Positions 2,807-23,588 of a stretch of DNA of 32,662 bases are shown one piece after another. The stretch lies in IMG/VR virus record IMGVR_UViG_3300006790_000062, positions 1 to 32,662 of that record; one strand, written 5' to 3'. Each line of letters starts with the position of its first letter. Within the stretch, counting starts at the first letter, position 1. This DNA is from a virus. A program made the position numbers and the translations under genes. Under the pieces are notes generated by a model that had not been told where the DNA came from, did no database searches, and was given only the letters and a program-made list of their open reading frames with translations.

Positions 2807-4396
2807 TTATACATCTAGGTTTTCTACCATTAAGATTGAACCTAAATCGTTAGCTACTGCGTCGAGATTAACCTCGTTGGTACACATAGCCTCGTAAAAG
2901 TCGCCTTGTGTAGCGATGTAATCAAAGCAGCAATAGGTTGTTGTGTCCGTCCCTGATCGTAAACTTGGGCCTAATGATGTAGCCTTAATGGTCGTGCCAT
3001 TTAGCCTAATTGCATGTTTTACTGTATCGGCTGAGCCTATATCTTGAGTGCCACCTCGATAAGTTACACGAATGCGCCTACCTGTTGGGCCTAGATAAGT
3101 AATCTTGCCACCTTGAACGGCCTCGCATCGAGTCATTATATTTACTTTAGGGTCTAAAGCTTCAACGGCTGGATCGGCTGCATAGGTTTGGCCTCCCGCA
3201 TGACCTGACCAAGTTCCGTTAATTCTTTCGAATATCCCTGATGTGTTGATTACTGTCACAACGTTTGTATTGATCGCATTGATACCAAACACACGGGTTC
3301 GAGGTAATCCCTCTGCACCGTAAACTTTCACGTTTGAGCTTCGTTCCGTTAGGTTACTGGAGAACGTCACAAAGTTAGCGATAGTGTCAACAAAGGCTTT
3401 ATCTGTGGTAAAGGTTGTTCCTGTCCTTGCGGTAATCTTCTGAGCGCCAGTAGTCGCACAGTCACCCTCGATATAAACAAAGTCGTTAATCTGTCTTGAG
3501 TGACCGACAGACGTTGTATATTGAGCAAAACCGCCATTATTACCGATTGCTGTTATATCTCCTGTTTCTTCTTCTGCGAATATCGTAGGCGTTTGACCAG
3601 GGTTCGCATAAATACCCGTGTTAATAAGTAGGTTTGAAGTGATAGACGGGTCAAAGTCGAATACTGTCTCTCCCGTCATTGCGGCAATTTGCACAGAACC
3701 ACTTGTCAAAATGGTTGTGAAGTTTAGCGGGTCACTTTGCCTAATCTTGATGTAGGTTGAACCTGCAATCGCTGGCTGGTTAGCAAGAATAGGGTTACTA
3801 AATTCAATTGCACAATCTAGGCTATCAAAGTGATTCATTGAGTTTCTAGATTCTGAGTTAATCCAGCGAACAAACGCGCCAGCGCCTCGGCAAGTAGTCT
3901 CAAAGTTATCAAACACGCAATCTTCGACAATAAAACGCTTTGTTATGATGTCATTCGTTACAGGGTTGATACCAATAGCGCCAGCCGCGCCAGTACTGAC
4001 AATTGTTAAGCCTCTTAGAGTGATCTCATTGTGTAGGCTCGTTTCAATGAATGGCCCACTTGAGCCCGTGATAATTGAGTTAGTTTTAGAGTTACTGAAA
4101 ATAACTTGGTTAGTGGAAAGTAGCCATTTTACATCACCCTCGACAATAGGCGCACCAATCTCAAACACTGTACCGTCAGGAAATGCAGTACCAAAGTTAC
4201 GAACGCCACCAATTAAGGGCGGTAAATCCGCAAGAGTTTGCACAAGTACCGTGTTAAGCGCATTAACCGCATTGAATATGTCAGGTGTTTTACTCTTGGT
4301 TACTTGGCTTGATGTTACATTCAAAAAGTCAGAATCATCATTGAGAGGCGTTTGGGTTTTCCCCTCAATGTAGGTTTTCATATCTTTGGTTGTCAT
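2807..4396 (-). CDS. Spike-like, beta-rich virion protein (probable parallel beta-helix)
   Basis: This 529-aa protein has a short helical N-terminus (MTTKDMKTYIEGKTQTPLN) and then a long stretch rich in Val, Ile, Thr and Asn. It contains rung-like segments such as HNEITLRGLTIVSTGAAG and TKRFIVEDCVFDNFETTCRG, as in right-handed beta-helix tailspikes. No catalytic motif is recognised. The start is the ATG at 4394-4396, which overlaps the upstream stop (ATGA) and has GAGGTGG five bases before it; an alternative GTG at 4405 sits on this ribosome binding site. It is last in a three-gene minus-strand cassette with a LamG-domain adhesin. A host-binding or polysaccharide-related role is likely but inferred. 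Confidence 0.65.
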   Translation of the reverse strand: MTTKDMKTYIEGKTQTPLNDDSDFLNVTSSQVTKSKTPDIFNAVNALNTVLVQTLADLPPLIGGVRNFGTAFPDGTVFEIGAPIVEGDVKWLLSTNQVIFSNSKTNSIITGSSGPFIETSLHNEITLRGLTIVSTGAAGAIGINPVTNDIITKRFIVEDCVFDNFETTCRGAGAFVRWINSESRNSMNHFDSLDCAIEFSNPILANQPAIAGSTYIKIRQSDPLNFTTILTSGSVQIAAMTGETVFDFDPSITSNLLINTGIYANPGQTPTIFAEEETGDITAIGNNGGFAQYTTSVGHSRQINDFVYIEGDCATTGAQKITARTGTTFTTDKAFVDTIANFVTFSSNLTERSSNVKVYGAEGLPRTRVFGINAINTNVVTVINTSGIFERINGTWSGHAGGQTYAADPAVEALDPKVNIMTRCEAVQGGKITYLGPTGRRIRVTYRGGTQDIGSADTVKHAIRLNGTTIKATSLGPSLRSGTDTTTYCCFDYIATQGDFYEAMCTNEVNLDAVANDLGSILMVENLDV

Positions 4397-6879
4397 TGAA
4401 TCCACCTCTGTGATAGATAGCTGTTAACTGCGTCGATTTCTACAGTTGGTAAGTAGAAGTTATTCGAATAGAAAAACTCGTATAGTTGGCCGTCTTGTTG
4501 CTCTGTTCCTATGTTGTTGTTTAAAAATCTCATTTCTGAGCTTTCCAAAACTAGAGTTCCACTACCAACAACCAAAACAGGCATAGAAACAACCAAACCA
4601 TTAACATATAACGTGGGCGGTGTTACTGGTAGGCCACTATTCCACATCATAATCAAGTGGAAGTCTTCACCCGTATTAATTGGGGCGCTAGTGGTTTCAT
4701 ACTCCCAGTTTGTGCCAGTAGTATCGTGAATGAAATTAAAGTAAATCTGATTACCTGAAACTCTCGCCCTTAAAGTCCATGATGATTTATCGACTAGTGT
4801 CCCCCATGAACCCGCAATATTATCTATACGGCCAGCATAAACGAGTGAAGCACCACCGCCAGACCACAAGTTATTCACTCCCGCGCTAGTATTAACAGAC
4901 AAGCTCCCGCCGTTGTCCTCGATGACAGGGCGACCATTTAGAGAGTTGAGTACCACTTGAGGCACGCCAGCATTGACACCAAGTGCATTGTTTTTCGCTG
5001 ACTTATCGAGAAGTGACGAGAAATCGCCAACGGTTGACGGGCTTAACAACTCAGTATAACTAGGGTCAAACCATATGCGTACATCTTGTGCCGTGTATGG
5101 AATGGCCGGACTTTCACGACCTGAGCCTATGGCCCACTCATTGATCAAGAAATCGCTTAGCTCTGTGACTTCTGGACCGCTTAGCGCTCTGCGATACAAG
5201 ACACCCTCGAACCATTCACCATTGAAAGGCTTATCGCCTGTAGCATTACGGCCAACACGTAAGTCACTACCTGAATCGTCATCCGTTGCGCCCCCTCCTG
5301 CATCCTTGGTCACAGACAGAGAAACGCCGTTTAAGTATATGAGCGGGTCTGTGTTTGGTGTATCTTTGTCCCAAGTCCATATGACTACATTAGGTTGACC
5401 ATGTACAAAGGCTTGTGTGTCAGTTGTAAAGCTGTAGTTTGTCCCTGCTGATGAGTGCTGTAATCGAATTGACGACACACCAGAGGTAGGGTTATCAATG
5501 GTTAAAGCCCATTGCACTTTCTGATATAGAGCCTCTTCCGTTTTGTTATCGAAAAGGTCAATAACTGCAACGGCTGTCGCGCCACCTGCCCAGATATTAT
5601 TTAACTGTGATGGATTGCTTAGGTTGACACCGCTTGACACTTTCCCGTCAAATGCGATCACATTAGGGTCAAAGGCTGTAGCCCTCCAAAATGCGATTGT
5701 ATTCTCTAGGGTGCTGGCTGCGTCATATGATGAGTTATCAGTCGCAACAGTCATTATGCGCCCGTCTGTGTTGGTCACTGGCTGCAATTTGCTGTTAAAC
5801 CAATAAACCATACCGCCAAGGGCTAGAGGTGTAGGGACTTCCTCGGTAATAAACTGGTCGGTTATCTCATCATAAAGAAGATCGCCTGTTACCTCATCGG
5901 TAATATACGTCAAGTCATCCGCATCAATACCACCATTCTGCGCCCCGAGTTCTGGCAAGTTGGTAAACGTCCAAGTTAGGCCAGTCTTGTCGAGGTTGGT
6001 ATATATGCCTCCATCGCCATTCACAACAATGCGATCGGTTAGCTCGGATATTTGACCGAGTAGAGTTGTAGCCGCTTGTACCTGTGTCCATGCTGACGCT
6101 GCATTCGTTGGGTCTGTGTTTCTGTAAATTCCATCGTTAGCCACTACCGCGAGCAATTCACCACTGGCAATCTCTAGGAAATCGACAAAAGTCGAAGTAG
6201 TTGCCGGGAATGCACTATAAGCCGTGTAGGTAACGGCTGGTTGGTCTGAGTTCGTGCTGAATTGTGCAACCCCATTCCACACATAAGAACGGCCAGTCGT
6301 GTACTGTGAAACTCTAACGTTAGTTATGTTGCTTGCACTTCCTCCGACTAAAGTAGCATCTGTAAAGTTAGTACCCCAGTCATCAGAGAAACGAACGATA
6401 TTAGCCCCGCGAGCTGCCACAAACATACGCCCGTCAACATGCCTAATAAAATGGTAGTCATGCGGTACTGCTACGGTATCAATAACAGTCAGAGTATTTA
6501 TATCAATGCGTCTTAAGAAACCGACATCACCTATAATTATCTGAGTTCCGGTAAATATAAGCCCGTAAGCGTCCGTTAGCCCGAAGGAGTAAGGAGTAAA
6601 TACATTCCCATATGTTGTTGATATTTGTAGGCGCGTACCCTCAAGAGCCATAACAATAGGCCCATGTTTCAGAACTGCCCTTATTGGCTGGTTTGGCAAT
6701 CTCTCGATTTTCATCGAAAGGTCACTATTAGCCAAAACTAGACCATTGTTTCCAGTTAGCTGTTGTGGGCTTTCTGATGTAATCGCTACGGTTGGCGTAA
6801 AATTAAGAGGCTCGACGTCAGTCCCTAGTACAGAAACTACTAGTGAAGACAATTTACCCCGTTGCTCTTGCCTTCTCAT
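4393..6879 (-). CDS. Large adhesin: propeller-like region plus two LamG/ConA-like domains
   Basis: This is an 828-aa protein. Residues about 40-310 form repeated beta-strand units resembling a propeller (SDDWGTNFTDATLV and NGDGGIYTNLDKTGLTWTF look like Asp-box/BNR repeats). A short linker contains YITDEVTGDLLYDEITDQF (325-343). Two concanavalin A-like jellyroll domains follow at about 395-583 and 598-828. They look duplicated: NNIWAGGATAV versus NNLWSGGGASLV, PLIYLNGVSLSV versus PTLYVNGLVVSM, and each ends in an L...EW/RW helix. Such domains bind or cut glycans, so a receptor-binding virion protein is likely. GGGGAGG precedes the ATG. No signal peptide is present, consistent with a virion component rather than a secreted one. 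Confidence 0.7.
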   Translation of the reverse strand: MRRQEQRGKLSSLVVSVLGTDVEPLNFTPTVAITSESPQQLTGNNGLVLANSDLSMKIERLPNQPIRAVLKHGPIVMALEGTRLQISTTYGNVFTPYSFGLTDAYGLIFTGTQIIIGDVGFLRRIDINTLTVIDTVAVPHDYHFIRHVDGRMFVAARGANIVRFSDDWGTNFTDATLVGGSASNITNVRVSQYTTGRSYVWNGVAQFSTNSDQPAVTYTAYSAFPATTSTFVDFLEIASGELLAVVANDGIYRNTDPTNAASAWTQVQAATTLLGQISELTDRIVVNGDGGIYTNLDKTGLTWTFTNLPELGAQNGGIDADDLTYITDEVTGDLLYDEITDQFITEEVPTPLALGGMVYWFNSKLQPVTNTDGRIMTVATDNSSYDAASTLENTIAFWRATAFDPNVIAFDGKVSSGVNLSNPSQLNNIWAGGATAVAVIDLFDNKTEEALYQKVQWALTIDNPTSGVSSIRLQHSSAGTNYSFTTDTQAFVHGQPNVVIWTWDKDTPNTDPLIYLNGVSLSVTKDAGGGATDDDSGSDLRVGRNATGDKPFNGEWFEGVLYRRALSGPEVTELSDFLINEWAIGSGRESPAIPYTAQDVRIWFDPSYTELLSPSTVGDFSSLLDKSAKNNALGVNAGVPQVVLNSLNGRPVIEDNGGSLSVNTSAGVNNLWSGGGASLVYAGRIDNIAGSWGTLVDKSSWTLRARVSGNQIYFNFIHDTTGTNWEYETTSAPINTGEDFHLIMMWNSGLPVTPPTLYVNGLVVSMPVLVVGSGTLVLESSEMRFLNNNIGTEQQDGQLYEFFYSNNFYLPTVEIDAVNSYLSQRWIQ

Positions 6880-9192: not shown

Positions 9193-9852
9193 TTACAATT
9201 TTTTTTCTCTGAGTATTCGAGCTATGCGCGGGTTAAGTTTCTTACCATGTTTCTGTTCGTATTCCTCACGAGCCTTGTCATTAATATTTTTGACAGAATT
9301 AACGGGCAATTCCTTCAACCTTTCTGAGTTTAAAATCAGATCTCCAGACTTTTCTAGCTGCGTAGCTTCAGCAAAAAGCCTCTTGTACAGTGAAAGTTCC
9401 TTTTCTGATGTGCTACGCCTTAGCTGATAGCCTCCGTTTTCATAAACCCAAGCCTCCCTACGTCCTTGTGGCTTACGCGCCTTAAAACGCGATAGAGCAG
9501 CGTTAAAATCGATTTTGCCATTTACGAATGTTGAGAGTGATGGGGGCCAATCTTCGCCGCTCTCGATGCAATTAGAAAATGAAGTCCTGACTTCCTTCGC
9601 TGTCATCGTCGATATTCCCTGAATCCATGTTGAAGGTAATTCCTGATGGGGCCACCTGTGACCGTACGCCTCCAGCATTTTGATGTTCAGCCAATCCGGT
9701 ATCGACAGTTGGGTTAATAACCCGTTCTGTAGGTGTGGAAGTGTTTGTGTATCTTGACAGGATGTTATCGACTGCTTGAGTGACTCGTGATTTTCTCGTT
9801 GTATTTTGGCTAGGGTTGAATTGATGCGCGTTAAATCCTTGGGCTTGGTCAT
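9193..9852 (-). CDS. Lambda P-like replicative helicase loader
   Basis: This 219-aa protein has a central WLNIKMLEAYGHRWP...STWIQGISTMTAKEVRTSFSNC...DWPPSLSTFV region and a C-terminal YQLRRSTSEKELSLYKRLF segment. This matches the general layout of phage P-type proteins, which bring host DnaB helicase to the initiator at the origin. The start at 9852 has AGGA about nine bases upstream (AATAGGAACCGTTACATG). The conserved region begins before the upstream gene's stop, so the first 93 codons overlap the O-like gene in another frame. Assignment rests on this pattern, size and position after an O-like gene. Confidence 0.65.
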   Translation of the reverse strand: MTKPKDLTRINSTLAKIQRENHESLKQSITSCQDTQTLPHLQNGLLTQLSIPDWLNIKMLEAYGHRWPHQELPSTWIQGISTMTAKEVRTSFSNCIESGEDWPPSLSTFVNGKIDFNAALSRFKARKPQGRREAWVYENGGYQLRRSTSEKELSLYKRLFAEATQLEKSGDLILNSERLKELPVNSVKNINDKAREEYEQKHGKKLNPRIARILREKKL

Positions 9853-10594
9853 CGTAACGGTTCCTATTTTGTTGTGCGTGTTGTTGTGCTTGATGGTTGA
9901 ATGCGTGAATTTGTTTTTGCCAGTCAGTTAGAAAGTGCTTACCAGTTCCAAAAAAGCTTGATACCTGCATGACATATTGAGTGTTGAGTTTTCCCTCAAG
10001 TCTCATGAACTCGCCATAAGCCTCAAGAGAACTACCAAGCTGTACCCAGTTGAACCCCTCTTTGATTCGTGCGTTGCAAGCTTTGAATGCGCTGGCCTTT
10101 GAGTTTGACCCCAACCTAGGCGGCTTGCTCTTCCATAAATGCTCAAATTCATCTGGATAGGATTTCTTTGATTTACTCACAGGGTGCAACTCGTTTGCAC
10201 CATTATTATTTATAGGTTCATTGACTGGTTCAAAAGAGTGACTGGTTATGGGTGACAAATTGCCACTAGGGGGTAGTGACAAATCGCCACTAGGTAGTGA
10301 CAAATTGTCACTAGGTTTAGCTCTGCCTGTGGATAAGTATATGTGAAAAATATTAGAGCTATTACCCTTTGGGCCTGTCCTTTTTTCTATGGTTAGGAAA
10401 CCGTCTTTTTGCAATTGCTTGACGTGTCGAATTACGGTCCGTCTGTCCATCTCGCAATGATCGGCAATGTGCTTGTAACTTGGGAAGCACTCGCCAGCGT
10501 CATTGGCATTATCAGCCAATTTTAATAAAACAAGTTTTCTCGCAGGACTTCCAATTTTTTCCTTTAAGACTTGTACCATGAGATTCATTGACAT
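9572..10594 (-). CDS. Lambda O-like replication initiator (winged helix, internal origin)
   Basis: This 340-aa protein has a winged helix at about residues 12-65 (CFPSYKHIADHCEMDRRTVI, HVKQLQKDGFLTIEKR), as in phage O/DnaD-type initiators. A linker encoded by the iterons follows (SLPSGDLSLPPSGNLSP). A second helical domain (DEFEHLWKSKPPRLGSNSKA...AFKACNARIKEG) and a Gln/Asn-rich tail come next. It should bind iterons within its own gene and recruit the P-like loader. ATG at 10594 is chosen: GAGGTG lies six bases upstream, while the GTG at 10603 overlaps that site. The last 281 bases overlap the P-like gene. Confidence 0.8.
   Translation of the reverse strand: MSMNLMVQVLKEKIGSPARKLVLLKLADNANDAGECFPSYKHIADHCEMDRRTVIRHVKQLQKDGFLTIEKRTGPKGNSSNIFHIYLSTGRAKPSDNLSLPSGDLSLPPSGNLSPITSHSFEPVNEPINNNGANELHPVSKSKKSYPDEFEHLWKSKPPRLGSNSKASAFKACNARIKEGFNWVQLGSSLEAYGEFMRLEGKLNTQYVMQVSSFFGTGKHFLTDWQKQIHAFNHQAQQHAQQNRNRYDDQAQGFNAHQFNPSQNTTRKSRVTQAVDNILSRYTNTSTPTERVINPTVDTGLAEHQNAGGVRSQVAPSGITFNMDSGNIDDDSEGSQDFIF
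10252..10315. repeat. Three iterons, probable replication origin inside the O-like gene
   Basis: Three 19-base copies of GTGACAAAT(T/C)G(C/T)CACTAGG begin at 10252, 10276 and 10297. The copies differ at only two positions. The third is part of a perfect 17-bp palindrome, AGTGACAAATTGTCACT; the others are imperfect versions. Start-to-start spacing is 24 and 21 bases, so the repeat also encodes a repeated SG(D/N)LSLP peptide. AT-rich DNA flanks both sides (about 10200-10212 and 10328-10360). Lambda's origin has the same plan: iterons within O beside an AT-rich unwinding region. Confidence 0.8.
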
Positions 10595-10617
10595 AACATT
10601 CACCTCGAATGTGTAAA
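10588..10617 (+). promoter_or_regulatory. Candidate plus-strand promoter antisense to the O-like gene start
   Basis: A perfect TTGACA (10588-10593) is followed by an 18-base spacer and TGTAAA (10612-10617, 4/6). It points away from the O-like gene and overlaps its start codon. A transcript would begin near 10624 and meet the strong terminator at 10660-10691. Confidence 0.5.
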
Positions 10618-10754: not shown

Positions 10755-11045
10755 TTAGATTTCGTTTTTAATGAGTTTTGGCTTTATTCCTCTAAATTCC
10801 TCCGCAATAGATTCAATCTTCGAATTTAAGCCTTCTAAATCTTTCACTGTGTCGTCCTCAACCGAATGTTTGATACAACCCCTTACTAAACTGCTAAAGT
10901 CGCTGTAATAGCCGCACAGAGAGTATTTTACCTTTCCTACATTTTCAGCTTTTGCAAGTCTGTGTTCCTGTACGATAGATTTTTTGTACAAGGTCAGATT
11001 GAAAGAGTCGCAATCTATGAGGAAATTTTCAGTTTCTATCTTCAT
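10755..11045 (-). CDS. Small conserved-looking phage protein (96 aa), unknown
   Basis: The N-terminal half is beta-stranded (MKIETENFLIDCDSFNLTLY) and the C-terminal half helical (DDTVKDLEGLNSKIESIAEE). The layout, with CGYYSDFSSLVRGCIKHSV in the middle, resembles small phage proteins of the DUF5405 kind in which a YY.s...al..yl...i motif precedes a helix. That resemblance is from memory and loose. AGGAA lies eight bases before the ATG. It precedes the O-like gene, the place of cII in lambda, but shows no HTH. Confidence 0.6.
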   Translation of the reverse strand: MKIETENFLIDCDSFNLTLYKKSIVQEHRLAKAENVGKVKYSLCGYYSDFSSLVRGCIKHSVEDDTVKDLEGLNSKIESIAEEFRGIKPKLIKNEI

Positions 11046-11095: not shown

Positions 11096-11192
11096 GAGCT
11101 TTAACATTTAGCCTTTGGGTGGCCTAAACGTTTTCATGCTTACCTTGTGATAAGTGGCCCTTGTAGTATTCCTCTCTGCAAGGGCTTTCTTT
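11096..11192 (+). ncRNA. Second candidate plus-strand small RNA in the early minus operon
   Basis: The 145-bp gap between two minus-strand genes ends, on the plus strand, in a strong hairpin with a T-rich tail. A promoter-like TTGATT (11061-11066)-N17-TTTAAT (11084-11089) lies upstream, overlapping a 7-bp inverted repeat ACGGGGA/TCCCCGT (11072-11095). That repeat could instead be a weak minus-strand terminator. The predicted RNA is about 95 nt and antisense to the operon message. Supported only by terminator orientation and a moderate promoter match. Confidence 0.3.
11157..11192 (+). terminator. Plus-strand intrinsic terminator in the early minus operon
   Basis: GCCCTTGTAG (11157-11166) pairs with CTGCAAGGGC (11176-11185) for 10 bp, including one G-U, around a 9-base loop, then TTTCTTT follows. 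On the minus strand the stem is followed by CACTTATC, so the U-rich tail exists only in the plus direction. Confidence 0.6.
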
Positions 11193-11373
11193 ATACTCGA
11201 TGCCAACCCGTTTCCTCTGAGCTTACCTCTTGAATTTTAAGTACTGGACGAATGTACTTGTTAAACATCTGGCGACCTGCTTCCTTCTCAGTCATTGCGC
11301 TGGTGTTTACTGTGAACTCACCGACATCAAAGCGAACCATTGTTACCGCGAAAGTTTTTAGTTGAGTGTTCAT
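11191..11373 (-). CDS. Hypothetical early protein (60 aa)
   Basis: It begins MNTQLKTFAVTMVRFDVGEF and ends VSSEETGWHRV: beta strands, then a helix with TEKEAGRQMFNKYIRP. It looks like a small single-domain protein. ATG at 11373 is chosen because it follows the previous stop by one base (TAATATG) with GGAG upstream; the longer frame to 11484 would overlap the 76-aa gene. No family is recognised. Confidence 0.55.
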   Translation of the reverse strand: MNTQLKTFAVTMVRFDVGEFTVNTSAMTEKEAGRQMFNKYIRPVLKIQEVSSEETGWHRV

Positions 11374-11374
11374 A

Positions 11375-11605
11375 TTAATAAGCTCCGTTTGCTGTTTGTT
11401 GTGCTTGTTCATCAAGTTCATGTAAGTGGTATTGCCATTCGAAAGAGAGGAATTTTTCAAACTCTTCTGGGTCGTATTCCTCATGTTTTACTGCAACTCG
11501 GAAATCAGCAAGTAAAAAATCTTTGTACTTATCGAACCATGAGTTAAATAGTTCTTCTTGGGTTTTTGGCTCCCCTGTGAGAGCCGTGAAAGTTGCGTCA
11601 AACAT
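11375..11605 (-). CDS. Small acidic early protein (76 aa)
   Basis: This helical protein is rich in Asp, Glu and aromatic residues: NSWFDKYKDFLLADFRVAV and EEYDPEEFEKFLSFEWQYHL. Its net charge is clearly negative (about 17 acidic against 6 basic residues). It is the second gene of the early minus operon, and its start overlaps the previous stop. Small acidic proteins made first in infection are often anti-host factors, but no family is recognised and the role is open. Confidence 0.6.
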   Translation of the reverse strand: MFDATFTALTGEPKTQEELFNSWFDKYKDFLLADFRVAVKHEEYDPEEFEKFLSFEWQYHLHELDEQAQQTANGAY

Positions 11606-11952
11606 TAGTATTCTCCCATATCATCAAAGTCATACTCTGGGTCAACTGGCCCGTCATATACATCTAGTTTTTCTATTGCTTGCTCAATCTCAATAAAATC
11701 ACCTAAAACATCGTGAATTATTTCTTTATGCTCTTCGTTATCAACATTGTTGAACTCATTGGTATAAAACCGACAAAAAAGAACGAAGGGAACATTTTTT
11801 GGCTTAACTTTATTCAAGGCATCCTCAAAAGAAATGTACTCACCTAAAGCTTCATCAATGACGTCGTGATCTTCGTCGCTTACTGCTTTGACTGCCATTT
11901 CGCATTTAATGTAATCAGCCATTTCTAGAAGGTAGTAAATTTTATCGTTCAT
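11605..11952 (-). CDS. Highly acidic early protein with an internal duplication (115 aa)
   Basis: First gene after the leftward early promoter. About 31 Asp/Glu against 9 Lys/Arg give a net charge near -22. Two related halves are visible: SDEDHDVIDEALGEYISFED (residues 25-44) with ALNKV after it, and DNEEHKEIIHDVLGDFIEIE (71-90) with QAIEKL after it. Each resembles a helix-turn-helix-like acidic unit, and the tail is also acidic (DPEYDFDDMGEY). First position, charge and repetition fit a DNA-mimic or other anti-defence/host-takeover protein, as inference only; no sequence match to Ocr is seen. Alternatively it may be an EF-hand-like fold, but no canonical calcium loop is present. Confidence 0.65.
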   Translation of the reverse strand: MNDKIYYLLEMADYIKCEMAVKAVSDEDHDVIDEALGEYISFEDALNKVKPKNVPFVLFCRFYTNEFNNVDNEEHKEIIHDVLGDFIEIEQAIEKLDVYDGPVDPEYDFDDMGEY

Positions 11953-11985: not shown

Positions 11986-12014
11986 ATATTAATAGTTACG
12001 GGGACGGACGTCAA
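11986..12014 (-). promoter_or_regulatory. Leftward early promoter
   Basis: On the minus strand TTGACG (12009-12014, 5/6) is followed by a 17-base spacer and TAATAT (11986-11991, 4/6). It lies 34 bases upstream of the first gene of the minus early operon and back to back with the rightward promoter at 12050. Confidence 0.6.
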
Positions 12015-12049: not shown

Positions 12050-12078
12050 TTGACATCATTTTATGGCGTCCCTATAAT
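12050..12078 (+). promoter_or_regulatory. Rightward early promoter, perfect sigma-70 consensus
   Basis: TTGACA (12050-12055), a 17-base spacer and TATAAT (12073-12078) match the consensus at all twelve positions. An AT-rich tract (12016-12047) just upstream resembles an UP element, and the start site should be near 12085. The palindrome TTACGTAA (12023-12030) lies between the two divergent promoters and could bind a regulator. Confidence 0.85.
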
Positions 12079-12105: not shown

Positions 12106-12252
12106 ATGAGTATCAAGTTAGTATCTCAGTGGAAGCCAAATGAAGACCAAGCTAAGTTTCTAGCTGGTAAAAAAGAAGAATTTAGAACAGTAACGGCTTA
12201 CATTCGTTACTTGATCAACGAGCAAATGAAAAAAGAGGCCAGAAAGAAATGA
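12106..12252 (+). CDS. Small Arc/MetJ-like ribbon-helix-helix candidate (48 aa)
   Basis: First gene after the consensus promoter. The 48-residue protein has a short strand (MSIKLVSQW), one helix (PNEDQAKFLAGKK) and a second basic helix (TVTAYIRYLINEQMKKEARK), the size and order of an Arc-type ribbon-helix-helix repressor. ATG at 12106 has ACGGGG seven bases upstream; an in-frame ATG at 12100 is too close. It could autoregulate the divergent promoters. The fold call is by eye and unproven. Confidence 0.5.
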   Translation: MSIKLVSQWKPNEDQAKFLAGKKEEFRTVTAYIRYLINEQMKKEARKK

Positions 12253-14704: not shown

Positions 14705-15169
14705 ATGAAACACAAACTTTATGACATGATCGTTGCTAAGGCTGAAAACACAAATTTAGTCGTTTTTTCAAGATTTAATGGAAGTCCGTGGATTAGAGTA
14801 GTTACGGATTACAACAAGACATTTAGCTTTTTAGAAGAGTATGAATATTTCCTTTGCCTACCACAGCATGAAGAGGTTTGTTTGGCTTGGTTGAATGGGG
14901 CTGAGGTGCAATATAGAGACCGAGAAGGTATATGGTTAGAAGTTGGCAGCAATGAGTACTTTTGGAAAGAATGGTGTTGTGGACACATGCTCATGGATGA
15001 ATGTGCTGAGGTTCGAATTAAGCCCAAAAAGGTTAAGCGTTGGATTGCTGTATTTCCTAATGACTCAACAACAAGTACATTCAAGTCAGAAATGGAACTT
15101 AAAAAGTATGTTGGGGATGAATCCAAGTGGGGTTGGGAAATAATCGAAATCGAGGTTACGGAAAAATGA
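14705..15169 (+). CDS. Phage protein with WLNG...RIKP motif, paralogue A
   Basis: This 154-aa protein contains AKAENTNLVVFSRF near the start, FLCLPQHEEVCLAWLNGAEV in the middle and AEVRIKPKKVKRWIAVF. Small phage proteins with W.ng..vqy....W......~RiKP are widespread and uncharacterised. The second copy at 15441-15989 shares this layout, so a duplication has occurred. ACGGGG lies nine bases upstream. Confidence 0.6.
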   Translation: MKHKLYDMIVAKAENTNLVVFSRFNGSPWIRVVTDYNKTFSFLEEYEYFLCLPQHEEVCLAWLNGAEVQYRDREGIWLEVGSNEYFWKEWCCGHMLMDECAEVRIKPKKVKRWIAVFPNDSTTSTFKSEMELKKYVGDESKWGWEIIEIEVTEK

Positions 15170-15441
15170 GTGACCAGGAAAAAATAGCAAAAGAACTCAT
15201 ATCCATGTTGTTAAGTGTCAAGCTGGCCGTAGAGTTCAACAAAGATAAACCCAACAAGGCAATTAGGCACACTCTCAAGAAAGTATACGAACGCGCAGAG
15301 AGCGAACAGGTTAAAGCTATGTGTGCGGATGGGTCTAGGGCTTTTTATCCCGTAGGTTGGGTAAGTCAGCTTGATAACCGTATTGTTAGTGATGGTAGAT
15401 ATTCGAAAGAAGAGTTTTTAAGGGTGGGGGCGAGTTTATAA
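15166..15441 (+). CDS. Hypothetical protein (91 aa) between the paralogues
   Basis: ATG at 15166 overlaps the previous stop (ATGA). It is helical at first (SDQEKIAKELISMLLSVKLA, KKVYERAESEQVKAMCADGS) and ends EFLRVGASL. Its stop overlaps the next start (TAATG). It lies between two related genes, yet is unrelated to them. No function can be given. Confidence 0.5.
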   Translation: MSDQEKIAKELISMLLSVKLAVEFNKDKPNKAIRHTLKKVYERAESEQVKAMCADGSRAFYPVGWVSQLDNRIVSDGRYSKEEFLRVGASL

Positions 15442-15989
15442 TGAAACATCCACACAGTGAGAAGATAACAGCAAAGGCTGAAAACCTAAATTTGATTGTG
15501 TTCTGTAAGGGTAAATATGTCAAGGAGTGGTCAATACTTGATTCTCCCGATGGTGGTACAAGCTTTCCTTTTGATTATCATATTTTCCTATGTCATCCAA
15601 AGCATCAAGATGTTTGCTTTGAATGGCTGAATGGTGTTGTGGCTGAATATTTGCTTTATGACGGTATGGGTCATGAAGATGATGTTTGGTGCGATATTGA
15701 CGGAATGGATAGATTTTCATGGTATCAAGAATGCCCGTTCATGGATGGAAGTATATACATCAGAATAAAGACGGAAAAACAAAAAAAATGGTTAGTGATT
15801 AAAAAGGATGATTTAGTAACAAGTTGCCCAAGAGTAGATAGGAAAGATGCACTTAAAGTGGCTATGGCTCATGAGAATTTCAAGTTAAGCGAAAAAGAAG
15901 TTCTTAATAAATGGGATTTGTTGGAAATAAAGGTGGTCAGACCATGCAAAGATTCAGATACAAGCTACACAGAAACAGTCCAGCCGTAG
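15441..15989 (+). CDS. Phage protein with WLNG...RIK motif, paralogue B
   Basis: This 182-aa protein shares with the gene at 14705 the start MKH...AKAEN.NL.VF, then FLCHPKHQDVCFEWLNGVVA, a tryptophan/cysteine-rich WYQECPFMDG segment and IRIKTEKQKKWLVI. A C-terminal extension (about 130-182) is its own. The duplicated genes may be alternative or interacting forms. Function is unknown. Confidence 0.6.
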   Translation: MKHPHSEKITAKAENLNLIVFCKGKYVKEWSILDSPDGGTSFPFDYHIFLCHPKHQDVCFEWLNGVVAEYLLYDGMGHEDDVWCDIDGMDRFSWYQECPFMDGSIYIRIKTEKQKKWLVIKKDDLVTSCPRVDRKDALKVAMAHENFKLSEKEVLNKWDLLEIKVVRPCKDSDTSYTETVQP

Positions 15990-16255: not shown

Positions 16256-16735
16256 ATGGCAAGAACAAAAACGAGTTTTACAAAAGAGACAGCATCAAAA
16301 GCAGGCAAGGCAAGTAGAAGAGGTAAAACCAAAGAAGCGATAGTTTTAGAAGCTTTTAAAGAGAAAGCTTACTTAGGTTTGGGTAAGAATGCCACACCTG
16401 ACGATTTAAAGCGAGCGATGGTTAGTCACTTGATGGAGCAATATCTCTATGCTGATCAAGATAAAGGCTTTTACCTTCGATTACTCGTTGATATGTACTT
16501 CCCTAAACACAAGCAAACACTAGAGCCTGTAAATTTCACATTCGACCCAAGTCACACACCTACTCAGCAAATGGAAGCCATACTTAAAGAAGTATCAGAG
16601 GGAAGTATTGCGCCTGATGTTGGTGAGGTTTTAGTCAAGATGGTTCATGATAGTGTTAAAATTGAAGAATACACCGAGCTTAAAGCTAAGATTCTTCAAG
16701 TTGCTGACAAGATGGGGATTGAGATAAATGGCTGA
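16256..16735 (+). CDS. Candidate small terminase subunit
   Basis: First gene of the late operon, 159 aa. It has a basic start (MARTKTSFTKETASKAGKAS, then RRGKTK), a helical middle (DDLKRAMVSHLMEQYLYADQ, LRLLVDMYFPK) and a C-terminal coiled region (ILKEVSEGSIAPDVGEVLVK, ELKAKILQVADKM). This size and the basic N-terminus fit small terminases, and AGKASRRG resembles the phage terminase-associated g.sgn..Gr motif, but no HTH is clear. ATG at 16256 is preferred because the longer frame to 16169 would start in the terminator. The call rests mainly on position. Confidence 0.45.
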   Translation: MARTKTSFTKETASKAGKASRRGKTKEAIVLEAFKEKAYLGLGKNATPDDLKRAMVSHLMEQYLYADQDKGFYLRLLVDMYFPKHKQTLEPVNFTFDPSHTPTQQMEAILKEVSEGSIAPDVGEVLVKMVHDSVKIEEYTELKAKILQVADKMGIEING

Positions 16736-17312
16736 TATACAAATTGTGTCGCGCACTATGAATTTATTAGGCCGACAACCTATTACCTCTATTCAAGATG
16801 ACGATTGGGGGCCGACAATCAACGCTCAGGCAGATGCGGCAAACAAGATACTGCTTGAAAAGTTTAAGTGGAACTTCTCGCGTAAGTTCACACTACTGGC
16901 ACCAAAGACCACCAATTCAAACCCTCGTTGGAATCTCGAATACCAGCTACCTAGTGACTTTGTTAACCGAGTTGACCTATTAACCTCGTTTGACGATGGC
17001 GGCACTATCAAAGCAGGTCAGTCTATCCCTTATGACGAATACGAGATAACAGATAACCTATACACGAACCGCGAAGAGATTATTTTGTTTTACACGGCTA
17101 CGAGTGAAGAGACAGCAACACGGTCGGCTACGTACATTGAATGTCTAGCCTATAAAGTTGCTTCTGAGCTGGCACCAGTACTGCTCAACAACCCAAGTAT
17201 GGCCGAGTATTACAACAGCAAACACTTGTATTACTTGGATGAGGCTCGAATAGTTGATTACGGTATCTCGGCACTACAAGATAATTGGTTTATTGAAACG
17301 AGGGCTATCTAA
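16728..17312 (+). CDS. Tail tubular protein A (T7 gp11-like)
   Basis: This 194-aa protein begins with the typical NLLGRQPITSIQDDDWGPTI segment, followed by an ALxxxxxF/W-like helix (KILLEKFKWNFSRKFTLLA). It continues with RWNLEYQLPSDFVNRVDLL and an ending similar to T7 gp11 (196 aa). In the virion it forms the adaptor ring between portal and nozzle. It overlaps the candidate small terminase by eight bases, and its stop overlaps the next start (TAATG). Confidence 0.85.
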   Translation: MADIQIVSRTMNLLGRQPITSIQDDDWGPTINAQADAANKILLEKFKWNFSRKFTLLAPKTTNSNPRWNLEYQLPSDFVNRVDLLTSFDDGGTIKAGQSIPYDEYEITDNLYTNREEIILFYTATSEETATRSATYIECLAYKVASELAPVLLNNPSMAEYYNSKHLYYLDEARIVDYGISALQDNWFIETRAI

Positions 17313-19420
17313 TGCCAGTCATTGAACAATCAAGTTTTACGCTTGGTCAGGTCGATGATATTTACTTTACTGCGACCAACCAGCAGCAATATTTAGAAGC
17401 CTTGAGCAAGTGCGAGAATGGTTACGTTACAGGTCAGCGCGTACCAACAAGGCGCAAGAGCTTTGCTTTTATCGATACCGACACCAAATACCCCACGGGA
17501 ACGGATGAAGAGTTTGTTAACTTTGAGTTCGAAAGTGCAGAGGGGAACTGGTACCAAGTAATCATGCAGTGGATTACAGACAGAACTAGGATAAATTTAG
17601 TTAAGTTTGCCATTAACATGACCTCGAATGTGTATGAACCTACTGAGACATTTCTACTTCCAGAGGTTGTGGGTTCTGAGTTTGTTGGTGTTAGGCCGAG
17701 TGAGATAGATTACACAGCTACCGACAACTATGTGGTATTGGCAAATCAGAATGTGCCACAACAAAAAATCACCATTGATGAAACAACTCTAGCTAGTTCA
17801 GTGCTTGAGAATATTGCTTTTAATGTGGTGCCATCGTTAGATTTTGGTGACTTGGACTACAGTAGCTATACATTCACGCCAAAGTGTACAGCAGGGGGCG
17901 ACCCAACAGGCTCACCACCAGTTTGTCCGGTTGGTCAGGTGTTCGGTGCTACGATAATAGTAAACATGATGAATGGCGACCCTCAGTTTAATAACGATTG
18001 GGTAGGTGGCCTTATCATTGGTCAGACGGGTGCGAGTGTTGAGCAGCCTATCGGTATAGGTCTAATAACTGCAATTGTTACCGACTCACCAACACAACAA
18101 ACCTTCACAGTTACAGTTCTACAGGCTTTCGGAACTGAAAACTTTAGCACTGCGGGCCAAACGTGGTCAGTTAGAAAACCTGCTTGGGGTGCTACTCAGG
18201 GCTATCCAGCTAAAACCACGTTCCACAAGGGCCGACTATGGTTTGCTAACACTAAAGCCTATCCAATGTTTATTGCTGGCTCTAAGTCGAATACACCGAA
18301 CGACTTCAACGTGGGAAATGGTGAGGCACCGGACGCAATAGCTTACATCCTTCAAAACTCAGAAGGTGGTGGCATTCAGAATATATTCGGGGGCCAAAAC
18401 CTACACATATTCACGCCTACGCAGCAGCTCGCTGTAGTCGGTGGTATTGATGTGGGTATCGAGCCGGGGAACTTCTCACCTAAGCTTATTAGCCAATACA
18501 CATCGAGCGCAGTTAAGCCAACTCTTTACCGTGAAAGAATCTACTTAACCACGGCTGACGGTAGAGCATTGATAGAGATTCAAGAGGTTGACCAAGCTGT
18601 AGCGGCTGGGATTATCTCGTTTAGTGCCACACAGCTAATCAAACAGCCCATCAAGATAGTTGCTCATAACATCGTTGACACTGAAGACCAAATTTTGACG
18701 ATACTCAACAGTGACAATACTCTGACAATATTCTCAAAAGCAGAGTTAACAGGTGTTCAGGCTTATAGTCCTGCGGAAATATCGTTATTCCAGAATGAAA
18801 CCGTGGCAGGTCTTGGGGTAATCAACAACGTACTTTACTCAATCACTGATGACTTGCGCCTAAACTACAGTTCTGAAAAGAAAAACATGGATGCTTGGAA
18901 GAATGTCGCTATGACAAGTGGCGTAATTACGTTAGGATTCTATCCCCAAGCACAGGTAGGTGATATGCTAGCCGTGACGTATGAGACAGACGTTAACGGC
19001 CAGATAAATAACAACTATCTAGGCGAATTTGCTGTATTTGATGATGGAGGCTTAAAGGTTGATGTGGGCCAAGACATTACCGCGAACGCGACAATAGGTC
19101 TTAACTACACAACACGAATCAGGTCAATGCCATTATTCAGTTCGGCAAATGGTAGCTTTAAGCTTAGGAAGGTGAGCAATGCGTGGTTGCAATTCTCTAA
19201 CAGCTTCAACTTTACCTTTAACGGTAGAAGATTGGGCGTGAACTTGCCAGCAACCCTATTACCAGCAGGCGCAAACCCTCAAAGCCTTACAGGTACATCA
19301 CAGATAGGCGTAGCAAGAGGCTATCAACAAGACTTCTTTTTAGAAGCAGTACAAGACACCCCATATGACTTAACAGTACAGACCTTTGCATGGTCTATCA
19401 CAGAGGCACTAATAGAATGA
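17312..19420 (+). CDS. Tail tubular protein B, nozzle (T7 gp12-like)
   Basis: This 702-aa protein starts SFTLGQVDDIYFTATNQQQY and has VTGQRVPTRRKSFAFIDTDT. It continues with a central WGATQGYPAKTTFHKGRLWF segment, a hallmark of podovirus nozzle proteins (GyP...tfh..RL.fa.t), followed by NVGNGEAPDAIAYILQNSEG. This forms the short tail nozzle below the gp11 ring. The order TTPA then TTPB matches T7. It overlaps the next gene by four bases. Confidence 0.9.
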   Translation: MPVIEQSSFTLGQVDDIYFTATNQQQYLEALSKCENGYVTGQRVPTRRKSFAFIDTDTKYPTGTDEEFVNFEFESAEGNWYQVIMQWITDRTRINLVKFAINMTSNVYEPTETFLLPEVVGSEFVGVRPSEIDYTATDNYVVLANQNVPQQKITIDETTLASSVLENIAFNVVPSLDFGDLDYSSYTFTPKCTAGGDPTGSPPVCPVGQVFGATIIVNMMNGDPQFNNDWVGGLIIGQTGASVEQPIGIGLITAIVTDSPTQQTFTVTVLQAFGTENFSTAGQTWSVRKPAWGATQGYPAKTTFHKGRLWFANTKAYPMFIAGSKSNTPNDFNVGNGEAPDAIAYILQNSEGGGIQNIFGGQNLHIFTPTQQLAVVGGIDVGIEPGNFSPKLISQYTSSAVKPTLYRERIYLTTADGRALIEIQEVDQAVAAGIISFSATQLIKQPIKIVAHNIVDTEDQILTILNSDNTLTIFSKAELTGVQAYSPAEISLFQNETVAGLGVINNVLYSITDDLRLNYSSEKKNMDAWKNVAMTSGVITLGFYPQAQVGDMLAVTYETDVNGQINNNYLGEFAVFDDGGLKVDVGQDITANATIGLNYTTRIRSMPLFSSANGSFKLRKVSNAWLQFSNSFNFTFNGRRLGVNLPATLLPAGANPQSLTGTSQIGVARGYQQDFFLEAVQDTPYDLTVQTFAWSITEALIE

Positions 19421-20058
19421 CCGATACTACTGACAACAACGAACAACAAGAACGTCTATACGTGGACAGATTCAAATCCGTAGAAGCTCTTGAGGATGGC
19501 TACAAGGAGCTTGAGAAGGCTTTCAGTCAGAAATCCCAATACGAGAGTAAATACAATGAGGTCAAAGACTTTAAAGAGAAGTTTGAAGAGCTATCAAGCA
19601 AGACGGCGATACCAGATGAATACACGGCGAAAGGTGTTTTACTTGAGGTTGAAGAGTCAGAGCTTAGAGCACTAGCAGAAGAGGCCAAGGGCTACGGACT
19701 TAACCAAGATAACTTTGAAAAGTGGGCTTCAAAGCGTATCGAGGATGCCAAGCAGAACAAAAAAGAGACGGTTGAAGTTAACGACGACCTCAAAAAGTAT
19801 CTATCTGAGAATGTTGGCCTATCCGACAATCTAATCAATTCATTTGATGCTAAGGACTTGGAACACTTCGAAGAGCGCAGACAGCAGTCACTAAACAGCG
19901 ATACTAGTGTGACAGGTGGCGCAACAGGTGGTGCAATCACAGCAGAACGTAAACGGGAACTGTATAACGAGTTCAAAGCAGTAGAGAAAATGGGCGGCAG
20001 AGCTGCGCAGGAAGCTTGGGACAAATATCAAAACGCTATTCAAACCCTACGAGGCTAA
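19417..20058 (+). CDS. Candidate scaffolding / capsid assembly protein
   Basis: This 213-aa protein is acidic and strongly helical, with long heptad-like segments (KSVEALEDGYKELEKAFSQK, VKDFKEKFEELSSKTA, DDLKKYLSENVGLSDNLINS). A glycine/threonine linker (SVTGGATGGAITAERKRELY) precedes a short C-terminal helix. T7 gp9 is likewise acidic and helical, with a C-terminal coat-binding helix. It sits just before the portal, as expected for head morphogenesis genes, but no coat gene adjoins it. ATG at 19417 overlaps the previous stop. Confidence 0.6.
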   Translation: MTDTTDNNEQQERLYVDRFKSVEALEDGYKELEKAFSQKSQYESKYNEVKDFKEKFEELSSKTAIPDEYTAKGVLLEVEESELRALAEEAKGYGLNQDNFEKWASKRIEDAKQNKKETVEVNDDLKKYLSENVGLSDNLINSFDAKDLEHFEERRQQSLNSDTSVTGGATGGAITAERKRELYNEFKAVEKMGGRAAQEAWDKYQNAIQTLRG

Positions 20059-20061
20059 CCG

Positions 20062-21684
20062 ATGGCTGAATTTAAGAAGCAGAAGCTAAACAAGCAAGAC
20101 TTAGAGCATTTACGCGATAAGTATCAAGTCGTTTACAACATGAACCAGCGTTACATTGATCGCCTTATTGAAGTTACACAGCTAACTGCGCCCCTGTCCG
20201 AGGGGCTTAACGTGTTGTATGGGTTCAATGATACTGGCGCACGAGTTGACCGTAATATCTATGACTCTACAGCTCAGTATGCCTCATCAGTGCGAGCTAA
20301 TAACCTGCACTCGTTAATCTGGCCCGTTGGTAAACATTGGGGTTCTGTCCACACGCTAGACCCTCAGAGCGGCCAAAGCACATACCGAGAAGCAGAGACA
20401 AACACAGCATTTAGCTTTATCGAAGAGAGTAACTTGCACGACATTGCAAAGGCTTACTTTCAAGATATTAATGTTGGATGCTCGGCTATATGGGTGGACT
20501 CACCGAGCAAAGAAAAGCCGTTACTCTTCAAGAATATTGTTGGCATCACAATTATGCCTGAGTTCTCAGACGACCCTGAGAATATGAATTGCTGGTGGCA
20601 TAAGAAGATTTCCAGCCATGAATTAAAGATGATTAACCCTACGTTCTACTCAAAGTATGCAGAGGGTAATCAAGAAGGCGCGCAAGATGAGTTCGATATC
20701 ATTTGCGGTTACTTCGACTGCAAAGAAAGTCACAATGGCTATGTTTTAGTTCAGTTCTTAAGTGGAGTTTGGCACACGCCACTATCCGAAGAGTGGAAAC
20801 CTTACCCTCAACTTGTTCTAACCAATGACAACAAGCGCGCTGGTGAGGCAAGGGGCCAAGGTGTATCAATGGTCAACCTTGAAAAGATTAAATGGATTAA
20901 TGACACAGCTCGAAACATCAAACAAACCATTGGATATTTCTCTAATCCAGCTCTAGCAATGGACGACAGGCTGCCAAACAGGTTGAACCAGTTGCGCGGT
21001 GCTCGCATTCCATCGGCTTTAGTTCGTGATGGTCGCGCCCCTGTTATGCCTTTGATTTGGGATTACCCACTAAACGAAATCGCGGCAGTACTTCAACAAG
21101 AGAAGCAAGAGCTACAGCAAATCTACAATATTAACCCTCTTGGGATGCCTAACGAGGGGCCAGTAGTTAGCGCTACTGAAATCGGCATTCGTAACGCAGA
21201 GGCCGAAAGGCAAAGCACAGCAGATATTAGCCGTATTTCTCGCTCAAGTGGTCGAGTGCTTAAAATCGTGGTGGAAATCCTTCGACATAGAAAGATTATC
21301 GACATACCCAAAGACCAAGCCGTTAACTTTAAGTTTGATTCGCCTAATGTGGACATGCAAAGCGCGGAAGAGGTTAACACTGTTCTACAGTATGGCTCTA
21401 TCATGCAGAATGTATCGCAACAGCCAGCCTTTATGCTTTACAACAACCAAGGCAAGTTCGATGCATGGCTGCGTGACAAGCTTAAGATATCCAGCTCCTA
21501 CAAGGCTACTCCACAAGAGACCAAGCAAACGGGTGATATGTTCGCTAAAGCTGCTCAAGGCGCTCAGGGCGGTCAAGGTGGGCAGCCTACTGCTCAAGGT
21601 GGTGGCGGATTCGGTGAAGCGGAAGCAGTATCACCAACTGGACTCGGTGCAGGTCAAGAATCCATAACAGGGTTCGGCATGTAA
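20062..21684 (+). CDS. Portal / head-tail connector protein (T7 gp8-like)
   Basis: This 540-aa protein has the head-tail connector pattern: LTAPLSEGLNVLYGFNDTGA early on, YDSTAQYASSVRANNLHSLI, TNTAFSFIEESNLHDIAKAY, then GVSMVNLEKIKWINDTARNI and PSALVRDGRAPVMPLIWDYP. T7 gp8 is 536 aa. The last 50 residues are Gly/Gln-rich (AAQGAQGGQGGQPTAQGGGG). Twelve copies form the ring at the portal vertex through which DNA passes. It starts three bases after the scaffold-like gene, and its stop overlaps the terminase start. Confidence 0.95.
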   Translation: MAEFKKQKLNKQDLEHLRDKYQVVYNMNQRYIDRLIEVTQLTAPLSEGLNVLYGFNDTGARVDRNIYDSTAQYASSVRANNLHSLIWPVGKHWGSVHTLDPQSGQSTYREAETNTAFSFIEESNLHDIAKAYFQDINVGCSAIWVDSPSKEKPLLFKNIVGITIMPEFSDDPENMNCWWHKKISSHELKMINPTFYSKYAEGNQEGAQDEFDIICGYFDCKESHNGYVLVQFLSGVWHTPLSEEWKPYPQLVLTNDNKRAGEARGQGVSMVNLEKIKWINDTARNIKQTIGYFSNPALAMDDRLPNRLNQLRGARIPSALVRDGRAPVMPLIWDYPLNEIAAVLQQEKQELQQIYNINPLGMPNEGPVVSATEIGIRNAEAERQSTADISRISRSSGRVLKIVVEILRHRKIIDIPKDQAVNFKFDSPNVDMQSAEEVNTVLQYGSIMQNVSQQPAFMLYNNQGKFDAWLRDKLKISSSYKATPQETKQTGDMFAKAAQGAQGGQGGQPTAQGGGGFGEAEAVSPTGLGAGQESITGFGM

Positions 21685-23120
21685 TGACCATCCGCAATCT
21701 ATGGAAAAAGATAGAAGCGCAAGCCAATAAAAAAGAGCCTCAGTTAAGCTTTGACGAGGATGGTATGGCCTTGCTTGATGGGGAGCCAGTGTTTCCCTTT
21801 AAGCTTAGGCCGTACCAGAAACGGGACTTTGTTAAATTTAGCTCGATGGCTCACCCTAAATTCTTCCTGCACTATCCTCGACGGGCTGGTAAAGACTCAT
21901 TTTGCTGGATGCTTGTTGTTACTCAAGCCCTTAAAGTGCCGGGGAACTATGCCTATATTCTTCCAGATAGAGAGCAGGCTGGCCGTGTAATCTGGCGTGG
22001 TGCCATGATTGATAAATTTACCAAGAAGGCTAATAAGTTTATCGACATGATTCCCGCACACATGATTGCTAAGAAGAATGACCAACTAAAAACAGTCGAG
22101 CTAACGAATGGTTCAGTTATATATCTGGTGGGTGCTAATCGTCCTAATTCTTTACGTGGGATTAACTTATCGGGGGTAATTCTATCGGAGTTCGCATTCT
22201 TCCCGACTGATGAAGCTTACCTAATCATCCTACCAGTTATCGCAGAGTCGAAAGGATGGGTATTAATCAACACCACACCAAACGGCTTTAACTTCTCTTG
22301 GTCTTTGTTTCAGCGTCTCAAACATGACGACGATTGGCACGCTGTATTAGAGACAGTTGAAACATTGGTTGATGAAGATGGTAAACGATACGTTAGTGAT
22401 GAAGACGTACAGAGCGCGGTGCGCGACGGTAACATGCCTCAAGGCTTGGTTAGGCAAGAGTTTTATTGCGAGCCAATACTCAACGAGGATGAGCTTTACT
22501 TCGCCTCTGAAATGACACAAATGCGCAAGGATGGGCGAATCAAGGTTGTTAAACCGGATCATAGATTGCCTATCCACTTTGCAATGGACTTGGGTGCAGA
22601 TGGTACGCCAATAATAGGCTTTCAAGTTCACTGGTCGGGCGACATTTCTGTGGTTTGGTACCAAAAGCCATTCAAAAAGGTTCGGACTTGGGGCGAATAC
22701 TGGCAAGACATCCGAGAGTACACGCTCAAGAACCGTCTTGTTATGGGTAAGCTGGTACTACCACACGATGCAGCTAAACGGGCAATAGGTGAAAGCACAA
22801 TAACCAGTGCTGAAACTGACTTTGAAAATATGGGGGCTGATGTCGTCAAGCTTCGCAGAGTGGGCAACAAAGATTCATTGATTAACTTGGCTAAGGTTTA
22901 CATCCCTAAAGTTGAAATTGATGAGTCATGCGAGCACTTAATTGATGCGCTATCAAGCTACAACCGAGAATTTGACAAGAAGCTGCAAGTATTCAAAGAC
23001 AAGCCGCGACATGATGAATGGTCTCACCCGTCTGATGCGTTTCAATACATGTGTCAGGCAATTGAAGACGGTGAGCTTGTTATGTCGGCTAAGCAAAACG
23101 GGATTTACTACAATGATTAA
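21684..23120 (+). CDS. Terminase large subunit
   Basis: This 478-aa protein has an ATPase domain with Walker A-like HYPRRAGKDS (residues 63-72), Walker B with LSGVILSEFAFF, and a motif III-like LINTTPNG. A C-terminal RNase H-fold nuclease has FAMDLGADGTPI, LPHDAAKRAIGE and HDEWSHPSDAFQYM. RRAGKD in place of RxxGKS/T is a variant seen in some phage terminases. It cuts concatemers and pumps DNA into the head. It is shorter than T7 gp19 (586 aa). It follows the portal directly, but the candidate small terminase is about 5 kb upstream, which is unusual. Confidence 0.93.
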   Translation: MTIRNLWKKIEAQANKKEPQLSFDEDGMALLDGEPVFPFKLRPYQKRDFVKFSSMAHPKFFLHYPRRAGKDSFCWMLVVTQALKVPGNYAYILPDREQAGRVIWRGAMIDKFTKKANKFIDMIPAHMIAKKNDQLKTVELTNGSVIYLVGANRPNSLRGINLSGVILSEFAFFPTDEAYLIILPVIAESKGWVLINTTPNGFNFSWSLFQRLKHDDDWHAVLETVETLVDEDGKRYVSDEDVQSAVRDGNMPQGLVRQEFYCEPILNEDELYFASEMTQMRKDGRIKVVKPDHRLPIHFAMDLGADGTPIIGFQVHWSGDISVVWYQKPFKKVRTWGEYWQDIREYTLKNRLVMGKLVLPHDAAKRAIGESTITSAETDFENMGADVVKLRRVGNKDSLINLAKVYIPKVEIDESCEHLIDALSSYNREFDKKLQVFKDKPRHDEWSHPSDAFQYMCQAIEDGELVMSAKQNGIYYND

Positions 23121-23532: not shown

Positions 23533-23588
23533 CTTCCACCGTTTCCACCGTTTAGTTATAATAAGGCTTTAAATTGGAGGTAATTATA

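Follow-up and report, generated by a model that had tools for sequence, protein, structure and literature searches.

Gene 0.3 of phage T7 encodes Ocr, a protein of 117 residues that forms a dimer imitating ∼20 bp of DNA. Ocr binds many host proteins that bind nucleic acids, and it blocks type I restriction and BREX (PMC7261183). Two further small acidic phage proteins, T7 gp5.9 (an inhibitor of RecBCD) and T4 Arn (an inhibitor of McrBC), also target host DNA enzymes. ArdA, a DNA-mimic anti-restriction protein of plasmids and transposons, is likewise acidic; this longer protein forms a Pfam family of its own. Here we describe a 115-residue acidic protein encoded by a virus from IMG/VR (record IMGVR_UViG_3300006790_000062) and compare it with these systems. 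The window, i.e. the whole stretch of DNA that was analysed, comprises 32,662 bases. The virus is a podovirus-like phage of marine type; it encodes a terminase together with tail tubular and head-tail connector proteins of the T7 type, and its nearest named relatives are Vibrio and Pseudoalteromonas phages, all with <60% protein identity in the genes tested.

The 115-residue protein and its operon

The gene of the 115-aa protein, its two internal repeat units and the genes that follow it leftward are the following:

11605..11952, (-): gene of the 115-aa acidic protein (ORF, composition, duplication, codon bias, ribosome-binding site GGAG)
11806..11883, (-): repeat unit 1 of this protein, residues 24-49, VSDEDHDVIDEALGEYISFEDALNKV region (self-alignment)
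11665..11745, (-): repeat unit 2 of this protein, residues 70-96, VDNEEHKEIIHDVLGDFIEIEQAIEKL region (self-alignment and alignment of the units)
11375..11605, (-): gene of a 76-aa acidic orphan protein (TAATG stop/start overlap with the 115-aa gene; own SD GGGAG)
11191..11373, (-): gene of a small 60-aa orphan protein (a shorter, likelier start of a 97-aa ORF)
10755..11045, (-): gene of a phrog_154-like protein, next in the operon (PHROG E 6e-15; phrog_154 is annotated as replication initiation)
9572..10603, (-): gene of a lambda O-like replication initiation protein with a winged HTH (PHROG E 6e-45; Pfam HTH_36)

The 115-aa ORF starts with ATG, which is preceded by the GGAG ribosome site. When its six frames were scored against the codon usage of the large genes of the window, the frame given here was the sole positive one (0.25, the other five ranging from -0.24 to -1.72). 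This codon bias, together with the GGAG site and the TAATG coupling to the 76-aa gene, indicates that the ORF is coding. From the gene order (115-aa gene, 76-aa gene, 60-aa ORF, phrog_154 protein, lambda O-like initiator), which leads down to the phrog_154 and O-like genes, we conclude that the 115-aa gene heads a leftward replication operon.

The protein contains 31 D/E, 9 K/R and 3 H residues (net charge -22, pI ∼4.05), so that the count of ∼31 acidic and 9 basic residues given in the first-pass annotation was exact. With a net charge of -19.1 per 100 residues, its gene ranked first in acidity among the 41 genes of the window that were scored. In a set of 3428 ORFs from related loci, which were called naively and include spurious ORFs, a net charge of ≤ -19 per 100 was found in 0.38%. 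The product of the next gene, which had been described as acidic too, indeed has 17 D/E and 6 K/R residues (net -14.5 per 100). Homology between the 115-aa and 76-aa proteins was not accepted, as their alignment score of 35 (shuffled 26.5 ± 4.6) was equalled or exceeded in 23 of 300 shuffles. For the 76-aa protein neither a family nor a phage homologue was found (Pfam, PHROGs, phage search), and the 60-aa protein had no family match in PADLOC or NCBIfam. Further along the (-) strand, two large acidic proteins of 828 aa (4393-6879) and 532 aa (2807-4405) had no PHROG match at E ≤ 0.01.

The proposal that the 115-aa protein contains two related units was also upheld. Self-alignment of residues 24-49 with residues 70-96 gave a score of 55, compared to 26.6 ± 4.7 for shuffled sequences, and none of 500 shuffles reached it; because the shuffles preserve composition, the repeat is not a composition effect. 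The two units are 24% identical over an alignment of 48 residues, and the repeat motif is LG-[DE]-[YF]-I-x-[FI]-E. To our knowledge, no internal duplication has been described in Ocr. Elsewhere in the window, in the rightward operon, two genes matching phrog_27352 (14705-15169 and 15441-15989, unknown function) flank a DUF7740 gene (15127-15441), and by their shared family this pair appears to be a tandem duplication.

AlphaFold, run without an alignment, returned all-helical models with a mean pLDDT of 58.7 for the whole protein and 62.8 for residues 1-99. Both models place helices at about residues 4-22, 26-36, 42-48, 51-63 and 73-96, and the moments of helices B and C (1.5 to 2.2) mark them as amphipathic. 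The protein is predicted to consist of two related helical units followed by an acidic C-terminal tail. No charge surface can be read from models of such poor quality. Fold searches with them gave no confident match (best Z 3.4, for Fis1; Foldseek E > 1), and at a pLDDT of 59-63 we regard the matches that were returned as meaningless.

The first-pass annotation had recognised no known family, and the same was found in every search made, i.e. against five libraries of families or structure sequences and in the homologue searches. Pfam, PHROGs, PADLOC, NCBIfam and the sequences of solved structures gave no credible match. With the PADLOC-DB models there were 0 families at E ≤ 1, the weak PHROG matches (E 0.02 to 0.33) involved only families without known function and were disregarded, and a match to the NCBIfam NrdI model (E 0.0011; 18.7 bits, the cut-off being 190) was judged to be driven by composition. 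A tblastn search found nothing in phage and plasmid records; peptide scans of IMG/VR and GTDB were empty, both with the protein and with an alignment of its two repeat units as query. Such scans detect a relative only if it retains an 8-residue peptide, and more diverged homologues in phages not yet catalogued could therefore escape them. Furthermore, no homologue was detected among 32,086 stop-to-stop frames of 121 syntenic loci (phmmer --max), in ∼50 whole relative records (HMMER) or in 763 gammaproteobacterial genomes (394 + 369, from the order and the class around a Shewanella genome). One weak match, to 36 residues in a GC-rich contig that is unrelated (L124; E 0.002), was attributed to chance. 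Two observations had been named in advance as contrary to an anti-defence role, a homologue encoded away from an early region and a confident fold of known function, and neither was found. The negative homologue searches also remove context, such as anti-defence islands, as a source of evidence. A tRNA and Rfam search of the window gave no match. Taken together, these results describe a genuine coding gene whose product is duplicated, unusually acidic and an orphan.

The divergent control region and the first-gene slot

The acidic gene is separated by a 147-bp intergenic region from the first rightward gene. The features on this side are the following:

12106..12252, (+): gene of a 48-50 aa basic protein, the first rightward gene (ribbon-helix-helix-like by eye)
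12050..12078, (+): sigma70 promoter TTGACA-17-TATAAT, 12/12, pointing away from the acidic gene, towards the 50-aa gene and the exonuclease
11986..12014, (-): candidate leftward promoter TTGACG-17-TAATAT, 9/12 (sequence no better than chance)

The acidic gene had been described as lying in first position behind a good early promoter. The position was confirmed; the promoter was not, as the perfect one points rightward (its score of 12/12 was reached by 0 of 1000 shuffles of the intergenic region) and the leftward candidate is at the level of chance, with scores ≥9 in 309 of 1000 mononucleotide shuffles (∼31%) of the 147-bp region. A good early promoter is therefore plausible by position, not from the sequence. 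Early expression of the 115-aa gene would be consistent with its place ahead of the replication genes, with the 9/12 site as a putative leftward promoter. Inverted copies of a short sequence, TTACGGGGACG / CGTCCCTATAA, occur at 11996-12006, in the spacer of the leftward candidate, and at 12067-12077, over the rightward -10; they are possibly a pair of operators bound by the basic protein of 48-50 aa. This protein (net +12 per 100) had only weak family matches, with E 0.007 to phrog_4223 (unknown function). In relatives the same place is taken by regulator-looking proteins of 50-53 aa (HS2, L009) or by Cro-like HTH proteins (L007, L010), and judged by this matching place it is probably a regulator of the divergent region.

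We collected relatives by their exonuclease, O-like, portal and phrog_32663 proteins to inspect the syntenic place. None of the relatives fetched in this way encodes the 115-aa protein. In phages that have the exonuclease-divergent layout, the leftward operon opens with a Cro/C1-type regulator in VvAW1, with an acidic 122-aa protein (-11 per 100) in HS2 and L008, with an acidic 77-aa protein (-19 per 100) in Vibrio phage D77 and with neutral or basic small proteins in L007, L009 and L010; in L006 it contains an HTH-like / Cro-like protein. As relatives with the same layout start this operon differently, the slot that separates the replication genes from the divergent control region is a variable, swappable one and not one known as reserved for anti-restriction. 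An acidic product at this place is found in some members and is not the rule.

By their structural genes, the closest relatives are two IMG/VR contigs (L122 and L123) with 76% DNA identity in these genes. Neither has a DNA match to the 115-aa gene (L122 is a partial contig). In L123 the replication module runs in the opposite direction and lies beside the tail genes; the region of the 115-aa gene is missing and the early module is a different one. The similarity to both contigs covers 16656-23535 (∼76% DNA identity over the tail, portal and terminase block), and the module border near 16.66 kb, beyond which the early module is replaced in L123, is sharp. L123 also shares with L006 a small protein that is nearly identical (KYKEFDDYLNSNGI...), as well as the C-terminal half of an O-like protein, and this sharing despite different exonuclease contexts indicates mosaic exchange. 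The exonuclease of L006 looks truncated (85 aa).

Possible modes of action

As a yardstick for charge we used 186 annotated small proteins, taken from early/middle regions of T7 and lambda and from two such stretches of T4. In this set -19 per 100 is reached by no proteins other than T7 Ocr (-23.9) and T4 49.1 (-21.6), and the 115-aa protein lies in the top ∼1% of its small proteins. Seven of the 186 have ≤ -15 per 100, namely Ocr, gp5.9, lambda U, lambda ninF, T4 49.1, frd.3 and 49.3. By the annotations of the T7 record, Ocr and gp5.9 (anti-RecBCD) are anti-host proteins. Lambda U is a tail protein, and we know of no function for lambda ninF, T4 49.1, frd.3 and 49.3. Anti-host proteins thus make up two of the three with known function at ≤ -15 per 100, a base rate that speaks for the decoy reading given below but comes from as few as seven proteins.

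The single most likely mode of action, to which we assign a probability of roughly 0.35, is that the 115-aa protein works as an Ocr-like acidic decoy that would bind a nucleic-acid-binding protein of the host, possibly a restriction enzyme. The analogy is one of function, not of descent, and draws on charge, size, tail, position and the coupled acidic neighbour. Such a protein would be folded and mostly helical, with two copies of a ∼45-residue helical unit and an acidic tail. Its gene, at the head of the leftward replication operon, would be expressed early, and the product would act in stoichiometric amounts: its negative surface would occupy the face with which RNA polymerase, a nuclease, or a restriction or other defence enzyme of the host binds nucleic acid. 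We infer the early expression, the helical fold, the decoy mode and the host target alike; an anti-defence role is a reasonable proposal by analogy.

In favour of such a decoy we count that the net charge is in the class of that of Ocr, that the gene is the first after the divergent control region and that its translation is coupled to that of another acidic orphan. Moreover, the unrelated acidic first genes in D77 and in HS2/L008 point to a variable slot, as expected for host-interaction genes, and we also count here that L122 and L123, the closest relatives, have no DNA match to the gene. Against it stands that no homologue, family or fold match was found in the searches made, so that the assignment of function rests on charge and position, that most acidic small phage proteins of the yardstick set are without known function and that the same operon opens with Cro-like regulators or neutral proteins in relatives. 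With respect to the possible target, the window contains 28 GATC sites where 93.8 are expected (z -6.8) and one TGGCCA where 14 are expected, which suggests selection by a host system cutting GATC or TGGCCA. As these sites are still avoided, the products of the window have not removed this type II-like selection. GATC is avoided also in HS2, L010 and T7, but not in D77 and VvAW1; because T7 carries Ocr and avoids GATC nevertheless, the avoidance speaks neither for nor against a type I or other target.

It is quite possible that the protein instead serves early host takeover or is an accessory of replication, making an ordinary contact with one host protein; there would then be no DNA mimicry and the acidity would be incidental. 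The gene lies in one operon directly upstream of the phrog_154-like and O-like replication genes, the amphipathic B and C helices suit a folded helical domain and T7 gp2, an inhibitor of RNA polymerase, is itself mildly acidic (-7.8 per 100), but the charge of the 115-aa protein far exceeds that of most small phage proteins and the searches brought up no relative whose partner is known. We consider it unlikely that this small early gene is one that evolves fast and has a minor or conditional function, not specifically directed against the host. Such orphans are typical of early regions and none of the searches returned a homologue, whereas the kept duplication, the codon bias and the coupled translation indicate selection on the protein.

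An antirepressor belonging to the phage's own switch, in which the acidic protein would neutralise the divergent basic protein as its partner, is decidedly unlikely. Although the two genes diverge over one control region and their products have opposite charges, opposite charge is common by itself, and the ribbon-helix-helix call was made by eye, next to the weak family matches given above. Relatives with this layout hold small regulators in both places, but an acidic partner of this kind does not recur in them. That the protein is an acidic metal binder, such as a duplicated EF-hand-like protein for calcium, is highly improbable: the acidity and the tandem motif superficially resemble the exit helix of an EF-hand, but with the glycine of the repeat at loop position 6, positions 1, 3 and 5 of unit 1 are I, E and L, not D/N. 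As no Pfam EF-hand family matched at E ≤ 1 either, the EF-hand reading is largely refuted.

In a narrower form of the Ocr-like decoy, the protein would be the founder of a new DNA-mimic counter-defence family. Duplication of the ∼45-residue helical unit would then have given a single chain with two decoy surfaces of half size, in contrast to the dimer of Ocr; we regard this as unlikely. If the protein is indeed a decoy, a sequence-unrelated and internally duplicated design joins the few known DNA-mimic counter-defence proteins, and the swappable first-gene slot in the present group of Vibrio/Pseudoalteromonas-like phages becomes a place to seek more of them. If it is merely an orphan early protein, it is one among very many.

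Comparison with known acidic proteins

T7 Ocr resembles the 115-aa protein in length (117 versus 115 aa), in net charge (-28 versus -22), in its acidic C-terminal tail and in being encoded by the first gene of an operon that is early in T7 and probably early here; it is also helix-rich, as the 115-aa protein is by prediction. In contrast, the two have no sequence similarity (their alignment score of 38 was reached by 78 of 300 shuffles), the 115-aa protein has no Pfam or PHROG match to the Ocr family at E ≤ 1 and Ocr did not come up when the weak models were searched for similar folds. T7 gp5.9 and T4 Arn, which are likewise small and acidic, show no sequence similarity to the 115-aa protein, and Arn is far less acidic (-9.8 per 100). 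ArdA shares the acidity and is a candidate for a similar way of working, but the 115-aa protein has no Pfam or NCBIfam match to the ArdA family at E ≤ 1. The first genes of Vibrio phage D77 and Pseudoalteromonas phage HS2 are alike in position, in their divergence from the exonuclease operon and in the acidity of their products (77 aa, -19 per 100, and 122 aa, -11 per 100, respectively); when aligned with the 115-aa protein, however, 212 of 300 shuffles scored as high for D77 and 93 of 300 for HS2, and these genes, too, are unannotated or of unknown function. As the sequence evidence failed for both the Ocr and the ArdA family, we do not file the 115-aa protein in either of them; from its sequence, it would belong with the small acidic early proteins of phages.
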